A stretch of 64,000 bases of DNA, from the NCBI GenBank assembly GCA_027314645.1, contig DAHVAL010000002.1:1-64000 (forward strand), given 5' to 3'. This DNA is from Nitrospirota bacterium. Lineage in GTDB: Bacteria; Nitrospirota; Leptospirillia; Leptospirillales; Leptospirillaceae. Both the position numbers and the translations under genes were made by a program. Positions 11,073 to 18,953 of this stretch are shown here, piece after piece. The notes beneath the pieces were generated by a model. That model had not been told where the DNA came from. It made no database searches and saw only the letters and a program-made list of their open reading frames with translations. The stretch's first letter is position 1. The number at the start of each line of letters is the position of its first letter.

Positions 11073-11507
11073 CTAGGGAACAAGAGTCAGGGCCGCTTCG
11101 GACACCCGGCCATCGACCATGGTAAAACAGCGCAATTTGGGAGGATCGGTGGAAAGGCCGACGATAAGATAATAGCATTCGGGATAGTAGGCAAGACGGA
11201 TATCGGTGGGTGACGGAGACGGCTCCGAATGGGGATGGGAATGAAAGATGCCCCACAGGGACCACCCTTCGCGGCGGATCCGCTTCATGGCATCGAATTG
11301 CTCCCGGGTGTCCATCTGGTAGCGGACGGGAGAATGGAGGGCGTTTGCGATGGGAATAACGGCGACCGGACGCCCGGACGCGTCGGCGGCCACAAGTCCG
11401 CACCCCTCCTCTGGACGCACCGCCCGGCAATGGGCAAGGATCTCCTCCCCGAGAACGGCCGGAAGGGTTACCTCCTCGTTCACGGAGCGGGGATCTGGCA
11501 AACCCAT
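11073..11507 (-). CDS. M67/JAMM-family metallopeptidase (Mec+/QbsD/HcyD-like)
   Basis: Canonical JAMM motif GIFHSHPHSEPSPSPTD and EEGCGLV. ATG 11507 lies inside the 3' end of the upstream moeB gene. Confidence 0.88.
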   Translation of the reverse strand: MGLPDPRSVNEEVTLPAVLGEEILAHCRAVRPEEGCGLVAADASGRPVAVIPIANALHSPVRYQMDTREQFDAMKRIRREGWSLWGIFHSHPHSEPSPSPTDIRLAYYPECYYLIVGLSTDPPKLRCFTMVDGRVSEAALTLVP

Positions 11508-12292
11508 TCGGAGGATCCGGAGACGGACGTAATGGTGGGAGCCGGTCCGCAAAGCGGACAGGACGGATTTTTGGGAACCCGAAGCTTCCGGAAGGACATG
11601 GCCAGGGCATCGTAGAGAAGCAACTGCCCTGTGAGCAAATGGCCGATTCCCAAGATCTTCTTCACGACCTCGGCCGCTTGGAGCGTCCCGATCGTCCCTG
11701 CCAGGACCCCCAGGACTCCCGCCTCCGAACAAGACGGCACCAAGCCCGGTGGAGGGGCCTCCGGATAAAGACACCGGTAACAGGGGGCATCGGTGTGGCC
11801 CTCGAGGACGGTCACCTGGCCCTCAAACCGGAGGATGGACCCCGAGACGAGGGTCTTTTGAAGAAAGAAAGCGGCGTCGTTGACGATATAGCGAGTCCCG
11901 AAATTGTCGGAGCCGTCGACGATGACATCGTAATCGGAGAACATGTCCATGGCGTTCTCCGCCGTCAGTCGATCCTGAATCGGGATCACCCGGACGTCCG
12001 GATTCATCCGTTCGAGCGTCCGGGCGCCGGAAAGGACTTTCGGCATTCCGATCGTCTTCTCAGAATGCATGATCTGGCGCTGGAGATTGGAGACGTCCAC
12101 CACATCCATGTCGACGAGGCCGATGGTCCCGACGCCCGCGGCGGCGAGATACATGGCCACCGGGCTTCCCAGGCCGCCCGCCCCGATCACCAGGACCTTG
12201 GCGCCGAGAAGTTTTTCCTGGCCTCGTCCGCCGACCTCTTTTAAGATAATGTGTCGGCTGTACCGGGAGATCTGGTCTTCACGAAATGGCAT
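11480..12292 (-). CDS. moeB: MoeB/ThiF-family E1-like adenylyltransferase (paralogue 1)
   Basis: VIGAGGLGSPVAMYLAAAGVGTIGLVD, PSCSEAGVLG, CYRC...CPLC zinc motifs. Start set at ATG 12292. Confidence 0.92.
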   Translation of the reverse strand: MPFREDQISRYSRHIILKEVGGRGQEKLLGAKVLVIGAGGLGSPVAMYLAAAGVGTIGLVDMDVVDVSNLQRQIMHSEKTIGMPKVLSGARTLERMNPDVRVIPIQDRLTAENAMDMFSDYDVIVDGSDNFGTRYIVNDAAFFLQKTLVSGSILRFEGQVTVLEGHTDAPCYRCLYPEAPPPGLVPSCSEAGVLGVLAGTIGTLQAAEVVKKILGIGHLLTGQLLLYDALAMSFRKLRVPKNPSCPLCGPAPTITSVSGSSEWVCQIPAP

Positions 12293-12302
12293 CGGATTCC
12301 TC

Positions 12303-12545
12303 CTACCCTTCGAGGATGCTTTTCTCGAGAGGGTCCACATGAACGCCCCGTTCCCTCAGATAGGACACGGTCCGGTCGATGTCCGCGAGCTCCCCGTCCA
12401 TCTCGAGCTCGACCCATCCGCTGTCAAGGGAAATGTCCGCCCGCCGTATGTTGATCACCACGGGAAATTTCCGGCAGATCTCATAGATGATCGGGTCCCT
12501 CACCCGCTCCTCCGGAAAGGTCAGGTGCAGTCGCATCTGCGTCAT
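12303..12545 (-). CDS. Stand-alone NIL-domain protein
   Basis: 80 aa MRLHLTFPEERVRDPIIYEICRKFPVVINIRRADIS...GELADIDRTVSYLRERGV, NIL-like; overlaps upstream gene by ATGA. Confidence 0.8.
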   Translation of the reverse strand: MTQMRLHLTFPEERVRDPIIYEICRKFPVVINIRRADISLDSGWVELEMDGELADIDRTVSYLRERGVHVDPLEKSILEG

Positions 12546-12823
12546 TCCGCCCCTCCGGCGATCGCGGGGATGATGGAGACCTCGTCTCCGAGCTTGATCT
12601 TCGTATCCAGTCCATCCTGGAAGCGGATGTCCTCCTCATTCACATAGATATTGATAAAGCGACGCAACTCCCCGCTCTCGTCCGTCAACCTTTCTCCGAT
12701 CCCCGGGTAATGGACCTCGAGATTTTTGAGGACCTCCCGAATCGTCCCTCCCTCCTCCCGGATCTCGCTCTGGTTTCCGGTCAGTTTGCGGAGAGGTGTA
12801 GGAATTCGTACGGTGACGGCCAT
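12542..12823 (-). CDS. MoaD/ThiS/CysO-family sulfur-carrier protein with C-terminal -GGAE
   Basis: 93 aa ubiquitin-like fold sequence ending SIIPAIAGGAE*; adjacent to E1-like, NIL and JAMM genes. Confidence 0.88.
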   Translation of the reverse strand: MAVTVRIPTPLRKLTGNQSEIREEGGTIREVLKNLEVHYPGIGERLTDESGELRRFINIYVNEEDIRFQDGLDTKIKLGDEVSIIPAIAGGAE

Positions 12824-12844
12824 GGATGTCCTTTCTTTCGAATG

Positions 12845-14155
12845 TCAGTTCGAGGGGTTGACGGTTTTTCTGAAGGAGGCCAGCGTCGGATCGATCGAGA
12901 TGGGTTCCGAAAGCGCTCCCGCAAGAGCTTCCATCGTTTTGAGGCCATTTCCCGTAATATAGGCGACGGTCAGGTCCTTCCGGCCGATCCGGCCTTCTTC
13001 GCACAGTTTTTTGAGCGAGGCGACGGTCACCCCTCCCGCCGTTTCGGCAAAAACCCCTTCCGTCTCGGCAAGAAGCTTCATTCCCTCGACAATTTCAGGA
13101 TCGGTGGCCGCCGCGATCGCTCCCTTGGACTTGAAGACCACCTCCAGGGCGTAGAATCCGTCGGCCGGATTCCCGATCGCCAGGGATTTTGCGATCGTCT
13201 GGGGCTTGACCGGGATCAGATGGTTTTTTCCAGAAACAAACGCCCGGTACACGGGAGAGCATCCTTCCGCCTGGGCCCCATTGACCGTGAGCCGATCGTT
13301 CGGGGCGACAAGCCCGAGCTTTTCGAACTCCTGGAACCCCTTGCGAATCTTGGTCAACAGGGACCCTGAGGCGATGGGCACAACCACCTGGTCGGGGATC
13401 CGCCATCCCAGTTGCTCCGCCGTTTCGAAGGCCAGGGATTTCGAGCCTTCGGCATAATACGGCCGGATATTGATGTTGACGAAGGCCCAGGGATATTCTC
13501 CCCCGATCTCGCTGCAAAGACGGTTGACATCATCATAATTTCCGCGGACGGCCACGACCGTCGGGTTATAGATCAAGTTCCCCAGAACCTTCCCCGCCTC
13601 AAGGTCGTGGGGGATGAACACGAAGCACTTCATTCCGGAACTGGCCGCATGGGCCGAGACGGAGTTGGCGAGATTCCCGGTGGACGCGCAGGCCACGGTG
13701 TCGAATCCCAGCTCGCGGGCCCGTGTCATCGCGACGGCCACGACCCGGTCCTTAAAGGAAAGGGTCGGATGGTTGACCGTATCGTTCTTGATGTAGAGAT
13801 TGTCCAAGCCCAGATACTTTCCAAGGCGCTTGGCATGAATCAGCGGGGTCATGCCCGCATGGAGACCGACGGTCGGCTCCCCGGTGACCGGGAGCAACTC
13901 ATGATAGCGCCACAGGGACTTGGGACCCCCTTCGATCGAGCTGCGGCTGATCCGCCGGCCGATCGCGGCATAGTCGTAATCCACCTCCAACGGTCCAAAA
14001 CAGAATTCACAGATATGGATCGCCACGGCCGGATAGAGGCGTCCGCACTCGCGGCACTTCAGTCCCTTTATCTTCGACTCCTTCGAGGAAGGGGCGTTTC
14101 CGCCTTCCGCGCGGGTTCGTTCAGATTCCTGGTGTGGTGCAGACGGGCTGTTCAT
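12845..14155 (-). CDS. thrC: Threonine synthase with N-terminal zinc ribbon
   Basis: CxxC zinc ribbon (LKCRECG...CEFCFG), PLP Lys motif NHPTLSFKDRVVAVAM, CASTGNLANSVSAHA. Confidence 0.9.
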   Translation of the reverse strand: MNSPSAPHQESERTRAEGGNAPSSKESKIKGLKCRECGRLYPAVAIHICEFCFGPLEVDYDYAAIGRRISRSSIEGGPKSLWRYHELLPVTGEPTVGLHAGMTPLIHAKRLGKYLGLDNLYIKNDTVNHPTLSFKDRVVAVAMTRARELGFDTVACASTGNLANSVSAHAASSGMKCFVFIPHDLEAGKVLGNLIYNPTVVAVRGNYDDVNRLCSEIGGEYPWAFVNINIRPYYAEGSKSLAFETAEQLGWRIPDQVVVPIASGSLLTKIRKGFQEFEKLGLVAPNDRLTVNGAQAEGCSPVYRAFVSGKNHLIPVKPQTIAKSLAIGNPADGFYALEVVFKSKGAIAAATDPEIVEGMKLLAETEGVFAETAGGVTVASLKKLCEEGRIGRKDLTVAYITGNGLKTMEALAGALSEPISIDPTLASFRKTVNPSN

Positions 14156-14930
14156 AATCGATTAACTCCGTGATCGTAGGATGATCCCCGCAAACGGGGC
14201 ACTTCGGACTTCGGCGAACCGAAACGGGCCGGAAGGTCGTGGTCAACGCATCGTAGGTCATGAGGCGGTTGGTGAGGAGGTGCCCTTTTTCGAGAAGAAT
14301 CTTGATCGCCTCTGTCGCCTGGATGGTGCCGATGACGCCTGCGATGACGCCGAGAACCCCCGCTTCGGAACAGGTGGGGACGGCTCCGGCGGGCGGAGGC
14401 TCCCTGAAAAGGCACCGGTAGCACGCCGATTCTCCCGGCAGCACCGTCAGAACCTGCCCCACAAACCGCAGGATTCCTCCATGGACGAGCGGCTTCCGGG
14501 TCATGACCGCGAGATCGTTGATGAGGAATTTGGCCGGAAAATTATCCGTCCCGTCGAGGATCACATCGTAGCCGGCCACGATCTCGCGGGCATTGGCCGC
14601 TGTCAGGGCAAACGGATAGGTCGTCACCGTCACGTCCGGATTGAGCCCCGCGATCTTTTCCCGGGCCGATTCAACCTTCGGACGATCCAGGTCCTCGGTT
14701 GTGTGGATGATCTGCCGCTGAAGGTTGGAAAGATCCACCACGTCCATATCCACGATTCCGATGGTCCCGACGCCAGCCGCCGCCAGGTACAATGCGGCGG
14801 GGCTCCCAAGCCCCCCGGCTCCGATGATGAGAATGCGGGAAGAAAGAAGCCGTTTTTGCCCTTTTCCCCCGACCTCCGGCAAAAGGATATGCCGGGAATA
14901 TCGCTCGATTTGGTCTTCGCTCAGTTCCAT
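14121..14930 (-). CDS. moeB: MoeB/ThiF-family E1-like adenylyltransferase (paralogue 2)
   Basis: IIGAGGLGSPAALYLAAAGVGTIGIVDMDVVDLSNLQRQIIH; PTCSEAGVLG; CYRC...CPVC. Confidence 0.92.
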   Translation of the reverse strand: MELSEDQIERYSRHILLPEVGGKGQKRLLSSRILIIGAGGLGSPAALYLAAAGVGTIGIVDMDVVDLSNLQRQIIHTTEDLDRPKVESAREKIAGLNPDVTVTTYPFALTAANAREIVAGYDVILDGTDNFPAKFLINDLAVMTRKPLVHGGILRFVGQVLTVLPGESACYRCLFREPPPAGAVPTCSEAGVLGVIAGVIGTIQATEAIKILLEKGHLLTNRLMTYDALTTTFRPVSVRRSPKCPVCGDHPTITELIDYEQPVCTTPGI

Positions 14931-14942
14931 GGAAGGGTCCCC

Positions 14943-15887
14943 TCAGAGAGAAAGATATTTTTCGATCGAAAAATATCGCTCATATCCGTCACACACCACC
15001 GTCACCACCTTGGAGCCCTCGGGAAGCGTTCTGGCCAGGGCGATCGCCCCAAACACATTGGCTCCCGAGGAGATGCCAGCCATGATCCCCTCCTCCCGGG
15101 CGAGACGGTGGGCCATATCAATCGCTTGCCGATCGGTGACGGTCAACACCTTGGTGATTACCGACCTGTCAAAATTTTTCGGGACAAACCCTGCCCCGAT
15201 CCCCTGAATCCTGTGGGGGCCCGGACTGCTTCCCGACAGAACGGCGGAGCCCGCCGGCTCCAAGGCCCACACTGGAATGTCCGGCGTCATTTTCTTCAAG
15301 AATCGCCCGGTTCCGGAAATGGTTCCTCCGGTTCCGACCCCCGCGACAAACCCGTCCGGAGGGCCCCCGAGAGCCTCCACGATCTCCGGCCCCGTCGTCT
15401 TGAAATGGGACTCCGGATTGGCGGGATTGTCAAACTGCCTGGGCATGAAGGAGCCCGGCTCCTCTTTCATGATTGCCTCGGCCCGGTCGATGGCGGCCTG
15501 CATTCCTCCGGCAGACGGCGTCAATTCGACGACCGCGCCGAGGGCGCGAAGATGGGAGACACGCTCCTGACTCATTCCTTCCGGCATGACGATCGTCACG
15601 GGGTGCCGGTAGAGGACGGCGATTTGCGCGAGCCCTATCCCCATATTACCACTCGTCGCTTCGACGATGCGGGCCCGGGGCTTCAGAAGACCTTGCCTGC
15701 GCGCATCCTCGATCATAAACAGGGCCGGTCGGTCCTTGACGCTTCCCCCAAGGCTCCGGGATTCCAGTTTGACCAGAATTGTCCGGCCGATTTCGAGGCT
15801 GATCCCCGAGAGGGAAACAAGCGGGGTGCGCCCAATCAGCTCAAGAAGGGGAGAGGCAGGGGCCCCTCCCTTATGTGGGGACGCCAC
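14943..15887 (-). CDS. cysK: Cysteine synthase (CysK/CysM family, PLP)
   Basis: LGGSVKDRPALFMIEDA, ATSGNMGIGLA, GVGTGGTISGTGRFL. Confidence 0.9.
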   Translation of the reverse strand: MASPHKGGAPASPLLELIGRTPLVSLSGISLEIGRTILVKLESRSLGGSVKDRPALFMIEDARRQGLLKPRARIVEATSGNMGIGLAQIAVLYRHPVTIVMPEGMSQERVSHLRALGAVVELTPSAGGMQAAIDRAEAIMKEEPGSFMPRQFDNPANPESHFKTTGPEIVEALGGPPDGFVAGVGTGGTISGTGRFLKKMTPDIPVWALEPAGSAVLSGSSPGPHRIQGIGAGFVPKNFDRSVITKVLTVTDRQAIDMAHRLAREEGIMAGISSGANVFGAIALARTLPEGSKVVTVVCDGYERYFSIEKYLSL

Positions 15888-15932
15888 GCTGACAGGTCCC
15901 GTTCAGTAAGGAAAAATGTCGACCCTCTGCGG

Positions 15933-16139
15933 TCAATTCCTTCCCCCTCCCATGAAAAAAAGAATTTCCAGTTCATCTCCCTCGGCCAAAACTGCCCCGC
16001 CGAGGTCTGATTTTTCCAGGATCTTCCCGTTATGCTCCACCGACACGAGAGCGGGGTCCAGGTCTTTTGCATCGAGGACCGATTTGACCGTGCTTCCCCC
16101 CTCCACAGCTTCGGATTTGCCGTTTACCAAAATGTTCAT
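15933..16139 (-). CDS. thiS: ThiS-family sulfur-carrier protein with C-terminal -GGGRN
   Basis: MNILVNGKSEAVEGGSTVKSVLDAK...LAEGDELEILFFMGGGRN*; ThiS fold with residues after the diglycine. Confidence 0.85.
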   Translation of the reverse strand: MNILVNGKSEAVEGGSTVKSVLDAKDLDPALVSVEHNGKILEKSDLGGAVLAEGDELEILFFMGGGRN

Positions 16140-16147
16140 GCGCGCTC

Positions 16148-17404
16148 CTAGGTTCCCTGCTCCCATGACGCCAGATACCTCTCCTGCTCGGGGGTCAGGG
16201 TATCGATCCCGATCCCCAGAGCGGCGAGTTTTCTCCGGGCGATTTCCCGGTCGACCTCTTTCGGGATGGTCAACACATCCTTGGGAAGGGTCTTGGCGTG
16301 CTGAACGATATATTCGGCACCCAGGGCCTGGTTCGCAAAACTCATGTCCATCACCTGTGCAGGATGGCCTTCGGCAGAGGCGAGATTGATCAGACGGCCC
16401 TCTCCGAGAAGCATGATCCGGCGCCCGTCCTTCATGACGTACTCTTCCACGAAGTCCCTGAGGGGGTTCTTCTTGACGGAAAGCTTTTCCAAGGCGGGGA
16501 TATCGATCTCGGCGTTAAAGTGGCCGGAGTTGCAAACGATCGCTCCATCCTTCATGGACTTGAAGGCGTCTTTGGCGATGACGTTGATGTCGCCGGTGAC
16601 GGTAATGAAAAAGTCGCCGACCTTGGCCGCCTCCCGGATGGGCATCACCCCAAACCCGTCCATCGCCGCTTCCAGCCCCTTGATCGGATCGACCTCGGTG
16701 ACGATGACTTTGGCGCCCATTCCCGAAGCGCGGCGGGCGATTCCCCGTCCGCACCACCCGTAGCCGCAGACCACCACCGTGGAACCGGCGAAGAGACGGT
16801 TTGTCGCCCTCATGATGCCGTCGAGGGTCGACTGGCCAGTCCCGTAGCGGTTGTCGAAAAGATGCTTGGTTTCGGAGTCGTTGACCGCGACAATCGGATA
16901 CCCCAACACCTTGTTTTTGGCCATGGCCTTGAGCCGGATCACCCCCGTTGTCGTCTCTTCCGTCCCGCCGATGACATAGGGAAGAAGCGCCTTGAGATCG
17001 GAGTGGAGCATGGACACGAGATCCGCCCCGTCGTCCATCGTGATCTGGGGCTTCACTTCAAGGACCGCCCTGATATGGCTGTAATAGGTATCATGATCCT
17101 CCCCCTTGATGGCAAAAACCGGGATGCCATCGTTGACCACCAGGGAGGCGGCGACATCGTCCTGCGTCGACAGTGGATTGGAGGCACACAGCATGACATC
17201 GGCTCCACCCGCCTTGAGAGTTTTCATCAGATTGGCGGTCTCGCTGGTCACATGAAGGCAGGCGGCCACCTTGACGCCCTTGAGAGGCCTGGTCTTGGCA
17301 AAGTCTTTGGCAATTTTGGCCAGGACAGGCATGTCCCGGCTGGCCCATTCGATCCGGCTCGCGCCTATGGCCGCCAGCTTTTTATCCTTGATGTCACACT
17401 TCAT
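16148..17404 (-). CDS. ahcY: Adenosylhomocysteinase
   Basis: 418 aa; [37 protein letters not shown], full-length SAH hydrolase features. Confidence 0.96.
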
Positions 17405-17446: not shown

Positions 17447-18604
17447 TCAGGCCAGTCTTTCCGCTTCACGTCGGAGACTTTCGGCCATGTCAAGCTTTTC
17501 CCAGGTAAAGTCCTCTTCGTTCCGCCCAAAGTGCCCGTATGAGGCCGTCTTTCGGTAAATCGGCCGTCGGAGCTTCAAATGCTCGATGATCCCCTTGGGA
17601 GTCAAGGGGAACAGTTCGCGGACAACCCCCTCGATCAGTCGGTCGGAGACGGGTGAGGTCTGGAAGGTATTGACGTGAACGGAGACAGGGTCTGCAACAC
17701 CAATGGCATAGGCGATCTGAACCTCGCATCGCTTGGCGAGCCCAGCGCCAACGATGTTTTTTGCAACATACCGTGCCATGTAGCAGGCGGACCGGTCGAC
17801 CTTGGTGGGATCCTTCCCGGAAAAGGCCCCTCCCCCATGACGTCCAGCGCCGCCATAGGTATCGACGATGATTTTCCTCCCTGTCAGGCCGGCGTCCCCA
17901 TGCGGCCCGCCCGTCACGAACCGGCCGGTGGGATTGATATGGAACGTCACCGGCCTTTGTCCCAGAAGATGCTCGGGAAGGACCGGCCGGATGATCTTCT
18001 CGATCACATCGCTGTAAATTTCTTCCTGCGTCACTTCAGGAGCATGCTGCGTGGAAACGACGACGGTGTCGACCGCAACCGGAGTGGCGCCATCGTATTC
18101 AAGGGTCACCTGGGCCTTTCCGTCCGGGCGGAGATAGGGAATGACCCCCGATTTTCTGAGATTTGAAAGCTGGCGTGTCAGGCGATGCGCCAGAAGAATC
18201 GGCATCGGCATCAACTCCTCGGTCTCGTCGGTGGCCATCCCAAACATGAGTCCCTGGTCGCCCGCTCCCCCGGTATCCACCCCCATCGATATATCGGGAG
18301 ATTGCGAGTGGATCGTGGTCACAACGGCACAGGTCTTGTAGTCAAACCCAGAGGATGAATCCGTATATCCGATATCCTTAACGACTTCGCGGGCCACTTC
18401 GTCAAAGAGAACATTGTGTCGGGCGGTGATCTCACCCGCCAAAACGATGAGACCGGTGGTCGTCAGAGTCTCGCACGCCACACGCGCCATCGGATCGTGG
18501 GAAAGGATCGCATCAAGAACGCCGTCTGAAATTTGGTCGCACATCTTGTCCGGATGCCCTTCAGTCACGGACTCCGATGTAAACAGATAGTGGCTCTTGG
18601 CCAT
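17447..18604 (-). CDS. metK: S-adenosylmethionine synthetase
   Basis: [61 protein letters not shown] precedes ATG 18604. Confidence 0.97.
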
Positions 18605-18627
18605 CAAATCCTCCATGGATTGAAGAC

Positions 18628-18661
18628 AAAAAAAAACCCAGTGCTAATCAGCACAGGGTTT
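18628..18661 (-). terminator. Intrinsic terminator / riboswitch expression platform in the metK leader
   Basis: Minus-strand RNA AAACCC-U-GUGCU-GAUU-AGCAC-U-GGGUUU followed by a U-tract; lies between the aptamer and the metK SD. Confidence 0.88.
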
Positions 18662-18681
18662 ACCGAGATCATCGAGTATCC

Positions 18682-18737
18682 TGGACTTTTAGCACTTTTT
18701 TTTAAGGTGGTTGCAATAGTCTCAAATCACTCCACCA
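18682..18737 (-). ncRNA. SAM-II-like riboswitch aptamer upstream of metK
   Basis: Minus-strand RNA GGUGGAGUGAUUUGAGACUAUUGCAACCACCUUAAAAAAAAGUGCUAAAAGUCCAG. P1 is GGUGG/CCACC and the pseudoknot is GACU/AGUC. UGAUUU, UAUUGCAA and GCUAAAA match the SAM-II core as I recall it. Confidence 0.82.
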
Positions 18738-18753
18738 AGTTGTATTGAATCAA

Positions 18754-18782
18754 ATACTAACGCGTGTTCCGGGTGGTGTCAA
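18754..18782 (-). promoter_or_regulatory. Putative sigma70 promoter of the metK operon
   Basis: Minus strand TTGACA - 17 nt - TAGTAT, placed so transcription would begin about 10 nt before the aptamer. Confidence 0.72.
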
Positions 18783-18877: not shown

Positions 18878-18953
18878 GGGGCTGTGGCGCAGTTGGGAGC
18901 GCGCAAGACTGGCAGTCTTGAGGTCACGGGTTCGACCCCCGTCAGCTCCACCA
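18878..18953 (+). tRNA. tRNA-Ala (anticodon GGC), CCA encoded
   Basis: Cloverleaf: acceptor GGGGCTG/CAGCTCC, anticodon stem-loop CAAGA-CTGGCAG-TCTTG, T-loop TTCGACC, 3' ACCA. Confidence 0.95.

Follow-up and report, generated by a model that had tools for sequence, protein, structure and literature searches.

Riboswitches of the SAM-II class have been described from alpha- and gamma-Proteobacteria and from Bacteroidetes (Barrick and Breaker 2007, PMC2258182). A long-loop form is listed for Bacteroidetes and marine sequences (Weinberg et al. 2010, PMC2864571), and SAM-II termination in Sinorhizobium was treated in a 2022 study (PMC9373788). The initial annotation of the locus considered here assumed that the class mostly acts on translation; on the contrary, in alpha- and beta-Proteobacteria SAM-II elements are mostly tied to terminators, which are the commonest platform there (PMC2258182). 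It also expected a non-proteobacterial host to extend the known range. The host is indeed non-proteobacterial, a member of Nitrospirota, but Bacteroidetes had already been included in 2007 (PMC2258182) and 2010 (PMC2864571).

We analysed a window of 64,000 nucleotides, the whole stretch of DNA under study, in which metK is preceded by an element of this class. We are confident that a cis-acting long-loop SAM-II riboswitch represses metK, and probably the downstream sulfur amino-acid genes, via transcription attenuation; that SAM is the ligand, that it represses and how far the operon extends are all inferred.

The element most resembles Rfam family RF01726 (PMC2864571). It matches model positions 1-60 and shares P1, UGAUUU, AUUGCAACC, an A-rich stretch and GCUAAA, and several of its relatives exceed the gathering score of the family. 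In contrast, its host belongs to Nitrospirota, whereas Bacteroidetes and marine sequences stand in the paper's table; its pseudoknot strand is AGUC rather than the CAG of the model consensus; and a terminator and a predicted antiterminator directly follow the aptamer. The alpha-proteobacterial family RF00521 (SAM_alpha) shares the conserved core and is built on the H-type pseudoknot plan predicted for the window element; alpha-proteobacterial members, too, often have a terminator platform (PMC2258182). However, RF00521 differs from the window element in a shorter P1 loop and pseudoknot, and its studied targets are metA, metZ and metX, not metK. The SAM-II riboswitch of Sinorhizobium meliloti metZ (PMC9373788) is similar in its predicted SAM-triggered premature termination, which leaves a short riboswitch RNA. 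It differs in gene, phylum and platform sequence, and has in vivo data, whereas the window element is known from sequence.

SAM-II aptamer upstream of metK

The aptamer occupies positions 18741-18679 of the minus strand. In a permissive cmscan of the leader (E-values computed over 301 nt and 4227 families), RF01726 was the best match by far, with 43.2 bits (E 3.1e-7) over the full length of the model (1-60 of 60). RF00521 scored 30.2 bits (E 3.3e-5). The gathering scores, 44 bits for RF01726 and 36 bits for RF00521, are curation thresholds and not structural features; the window element falls 0.8 bit short of the former. As it lies just below both, the Rfam scan of the window at default cut-offs missed it and returned two tRNAs only. 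Judged by the RF01726 match, the element is a genuine SAM-II riboswitch, of a known class. The identity proposed in the initial annotation thus stands, and the covariance-model match is significant, though its score remains below the gathering score.

A search of the complete 2.04-Mb genome with RF01726 gave this match alone at E<=0.01 (E 4.9e-7). Apart from this element, the whole-genome search with RF00521 gave matches at chance level, which were set aside; at E<=10 this model also matches in 14 of 14 control genomes. The leader matches of PyrR, Thr_leader and other families (E 0.8 or worse) were likewise ascribed to chance. At thresholds up to E 10 the leader matched none of the covariance models of SAM-V, SAM/SAH, SAM-I, SAM-III, SAM-IV and SAM-VI, and no SAM-I riboswitch was observed in the 21 Leptospirillum-family genomes.

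On the minus strand, the P1 strands GGUGG (18736-18732) and CCACC (18710-18706) pair with each other. The predicted pseudoknot (P2b) would join GACU (18721-18718) and AGUC (18687-18684), with which the 5' strand of the predicted antiterminator also begins; the two are perfectly complementary in the window. The conserved core GCUAAAA, recognised by the covariance-model match and the alignment, lies at 18693-18687, and UGAUUU and UAUUGCAA are present as well. All these parts, the pseudoknot strands included, are found where the initial annotation had placed them.

The core motifs UGAUUU, UUGCAA and GCUAA are invariant in an alignment of 23 Nitrospirota leaders, recovered by the covariance model and not by pattern. 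This argues against the RNA being a relative of SAM-II that binds a different molecule, such as SAH or a polyamine, as does the position upstream of metK, the expected SAM-repressed target. Such a reading could appeal to ahcY, the next gene after metK, and to a close variant of a SAM aptamer that is reported to bind spermidine (PMC10853860); we regard it as highly improbable.

The P1 helix was assessed on 105 distinct aptamers from several phyla, gathered with a search pattern that left the fourth and fifth pairs of P1 free. The fourth pair is standard in all 105 (88 GC, 17 CG; the standard fraction in shuffles has a mean of 0.73 and a maximum of 0.81), and the fifth in 70% (shuffles: mean 39%, maximum 52%). 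The outer pairs of P1 covary across these aptamers. The pseudoknot is short and variable outside the window, shorter still in several relatives, and some keep only GG/CC with scattered pairs. With all phyla pooled, the duplexes between own partners (-3.23 kcal/mol) were not clearly better than those between swapped ones, which averaged -2.85 kcal/mol and reached -3.42 kcal/mol in the best of 300 swaps, and pseudoknot covariation was set aside as support. Of the pairings whose conservation the initial annotation had made decisive, P1 is supported, but the pseudoknot is kept less well.

The metK leader and downstream genes

The order of signals on the minus strand is promoter, SAM-II aptamer, intrinsic terminator, GGAGG and metK. 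The candidate promoter, already noted in the initial annotation, consists of a -35 hexamer TTGACA (18782-18777) and, after a 17-nt spacer, a -10 hexamer TAGTAT (18759-18754). Sites like TTGACA-17-TAGTAT are expected 0.4 times per shuffled region, and 23 of 24 related leaders keep TTGAC ahead of the aptamer. A divergent tRNA-Ala gene (GGC; 18878-18953, plus strand) lies upstream of the leader. The Shine-Dalgarno box GGAGG is found at 18614-18610, followed by metK as previously reported. The metK reading frame is open from 18616, and an ATG at 18604 stands five bases past GGAGG. This codon is the likely start on sequence grounds, rather than the first ATG at 18616, since the latter overlaps the Shine-Dalgarno box and is missing in several relatives.

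All downstream genes considered are on the minus strand. The metK gene (methionine adenosyltransferase, 17447-18604; TIGR01034, 578 bits) is followed by ahcY (adenosylhomocysteinase, 16148-17404; TIGR00936, 624 bits), likely in the same operon. The former is responsible for SAM synthesis and the latter for SAH recycling, hence both are expected targets of a SAM riboswitch. Further on are a small ThiS-like ORF of 68 aa (15933-16139, identified by eye only), a cysK/cysM cysteine synthase gene that is possibly in the same operon (14943-15887; TIGR01139, PF00291), and genes for a ThiF/MoeB-type adenylyltransferase (14121-14930; PF00899), a threonine-synthase-like PLP enzyme (12845-14155; TIGR00260), a ThiS/MoaD-type sulfur carrier (12542-12823; PF02597) and a NIL-domain protein (12303-12545; PF09383). 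A second ThiF and a JAB-domain protein come next, and the sulfur-transfer run as a whole spans 11073-16139. Its gene content is suggestive of a pathway present in other bacteria, in which sulfide enters cysteine or homocysteine by way of protein thiocarboxylates. The genes behind metK-ahcY are perhaps on one transcript with them, and would then be under the metK riboswitch. The initial annotation had recognised metK as the downstream gene but missed this probable sulfur amino-acid operon behind it.

Conservation in Nitrospirota

The element was found upstream of metK, as anticipated for relatives, in 18 of the 21 genomes of the family, with 10 of the 18 above the RF01726 gathering score of 44. 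The remaining three do not contradict this distribution, because in two of them metK starts at a contig edge and is cut, and in the third no metK was found. The relative G019, a single contig of 2.56 Mb, exceeds the gathering score with 44.6, and so Rfam may already list such members.

Two further families carry the element in a sample of 150 Nitrospirota genomes. A match in one more genome (L028; RF01726 26 bits, E 0.007) was rejected, the core pattern being absent. In family f7 the SAM-II RNA precedes a gene with JAB-like sequence, and in L058 a cysK-like gene is next, as judged by eye, a setting that echoes the sulfur genes behind metK in the window. In two genomes of the same genus as the window, L029 and L030 (= L118, L098), SAM-II occurs a second time, accompanied by a terminator of its own; this copy precedes a small ORF and not metK.

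Terminator and candidate antiterminator

The intrinsic terminator at 18661-18628 (minus strand, -14.7 kcal/mol) has the stem AAACCC-U-GUGCU / AGCAC-U-GGGUUU, followed by T's. A hairpin with a T run occurs 3' of the aptamer in 23 of 23 distinct Nitrospirota leaders. The terminator platform before metK had thus been correctly noticed, but an antiterminator linking the pseudoknot to the terminator had been overlooked.

One alternative is that the SAM-II aptamer hides the ribosome-binding site and controls translation, the terminator being incidental. The metX SAM-II riboswitch has been described as occluding this site directly (PMC10907184), and many Bacteroidota leaders show no terminator-like hairpin in a simple scan. 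However, in the window an intrinsic terminator sits between aptamer and Shine-Dalgarno box, and GGAGG is about 70 nt past the pseudoknot strand, outside both predicted folds; in all related leaders, moreover, the aptamer has a hairpin with a T run behind it. We rank this alternative low because the Shine-Dalgarno box is so far outside the aptamer, and consider it quite improbable. Most likely, control is exerted at the terminator, and transcription of the methionine/cysteine operon is stopped when SAM is plentiful.

The candidate antiterminator emerges when the leader is folded only up to the terminator 5' strand. The minimum-energy structure then consists of P1 and a second hairpin, in which AGUCCAGG (18687-18680) is paired with CCUGUGCU (18657-18650), a segment of the terminator 5' strand, around an inner hairpin UAC(u)CGA / UCGGUA (18678-18661). 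By eye, AGUCCAGG and CCUGUGCU form seven pairs with one C-U mismatch; the fold program renders the lower part as GUC/GGU-type pairs, with unchanged partners. When the full leader is folded, the minimum-energy structure (-32.6 kcal/mol; z -3.1 relative to shuffles) keeps this hairpin and lengthens it by an outer helix between AGUGCUAA of the aptamer (18696-18689) and UUAGCACU, which belongs to the terminator loop and 3' strand (18647-18640). All these strands are on the minus strand. The antiterminator is predicted to exclude both the pseudoknot and the terminator, so that the structures would be mutually exclusive.

This suggests the following model. Transcription would start a few bases 5' of P1. 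When SAM is scarce, the aptamer would remain a P1 hairpin, and as polymerase advances the pseudoknot-closing strand and its tail, AGUCCAGG, would pair with CCUGUGCU, aided by the inner hairpin. AGUGCUAA would then be able to zip onto UUAGCACU, the terminator would be absent, and metK would be read. When SAM is abundant, the pseudoknot would be locked by GACU/AGUC and the GCUAA core; with the AGUC strand occupied, the terminator would fold and transcription would halt.

The fold predictor does not handle pseudoknots, and the SAM-bound state was imitated by masking the GCUAAAAGUC strand. Under this treatment the probability of the terminator pairs in the window rises from 0.04 in the free RNA to 0.99. 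In the relatives it ranges from 0.00 to 1.00 in the free RNA and is at least 0.99 after masking in 23 of 23 leaders. In all but one of the 23 leaders (22 of 23, L030 being the exception) the pre-terminator minimum-energy fold couples the aptamer tail with the terminator 5' strand.

Another possibility is a SAM-sensing aptamer followed by a constitutive terminator that does not respond to SAM and serves to trim basal metK expression or to free a short RNA. Indeed, a terminator follows the SAM-II riboswitch of Sinorhizobium metA, where no antiterminator could be predicted by the authors (PMC9373788), and the terminator is already favoured in the full-leader equilibrium fold of 14 of 23 leaders (probability 0.63 to 1.00). 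A switch in these 14 would therefore need to be kinetic. On the other hand, the free RNA of the window disfavours the terminator, and the 22 predicted antiterminators use the pseudoknot strand. A constitutive terminator is in our opinion improbable.

Attenuation through the antiterminator gains some support from comparisons among the leaders. The antiterminator is stabler than the mean of linker-shuffled sequences in 23 of 23 leaders (z -0.5 to -3.5), a test that is modest for each leader taken singly: in the window 5.6% of shuffles are equally stable. The sequence of the inner hairpin varies by subgroup with its pairing mostly retained (UUUAC/GUAAA in L007, CGAGA/UCUCG in L006). Most leaders have A-U at one pair of the antiterminator where L029/L030 have G-U and L025-L027 have G-C. 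Among the metK leaders of the Leptospirillum family, 17 of them distinct, the U of this A-U pair is the one that the terminator leaves without a partner (opposite U or C), as selection for the antiterminator would lead one to expect. Covariation is thin, because the strands are nearly invariant inside the family. The pairs were read in each sequence and not by the column counter, as the tails of L017, L029 and L030 are wrongly placed in the MAFFT alignment (A1).

SAM-II elements in other phyla

A pattern scan with 24 fixed bases over one genome per species yielded at least 118 stretches; assuming equal base use, the estimated number of chance matches is well below one. Among the matches listed are Bacteroidota, Acidobacteriota, Gemmatimonadota, Tectomicrobia/Entotheonella, Nitrospirota, Fermentibacterota (Hyd24-12, Sabulitectum, Aegiribacteria) and one Spirochaetes MAG. 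Most of the records are MAGs, and single odd taxa should be held lightly. By a motif check of the matches listed, metK lies behind at least 70 and a metH-like gene behind at least 21; among the remaining 27 of those listed, several are metK spelt TEGHPDK, outside the motif. The matches in L127 (Acidobacteria MAG) and L128 (Bacterium UASB14) precede genes with no evident methionine link, and may be either real targets or chance matches.

A distinct pairing was observed in leaders of metH-like genes in Acidobacteriota and Gemmatimonadota (L032, L036, L039, L046, L099, L103 and similar). Here the 5' strand of the pseudoknot, GGGGCC or a variant of it, has its complement further downstream, often in the terminator 5' strand. 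Over 22 metH-like leaders the own pairings average -17.5 kcal/mol, better than 300 of 300 partner swaps (best -17.4).

In metK leaders of Fermentibacterota (L035, L047, L070, L082, L095, L119), the loop UUGAGGU/C is complementary to ACCUCAA/GCCUCAA or similar just 5' of a terminator-like hairpin. Some changes match on the two sides; the swap test is not significant.

Discussion

What is new about the element is chiefly that it occurs in the Leptospirillum family of Nitrospirota, the class itself being already known. A search of the freely accessible literature found no mention of SAM-II riboswitches with Nitrospirota. The range comprising Nitrospirota together with the records from Acidobacteriota, Fermentibacterota, Gemmatimonadota and Tectomicrobia seems to be unreported. 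We lean slightly towards the view that long-loop SAM-II riboswitches extend well beyond Proteobacteria and Bacteroidota and that different lineage-specific antiterminators evolved on a shared aptamer, the terminator 5' strand being captured by the 3' pseudoknot strand in Nitrospirota and by the 5' strand in Acidobacteriota (metH-like genes).

These observations suggest that SAM-II is more widespread than its published range allows, and that the Rfam cut-off loses nearly half of these members. The locus also provides a compact natural case of a riboswitch pseudoknot strand doubling as a predicted antiterminator strand. Members of the Leptospirillum family are acidophilic iron oxidisers used in biomining, and the family gains a testable candidate SAM switch on its metK operon.
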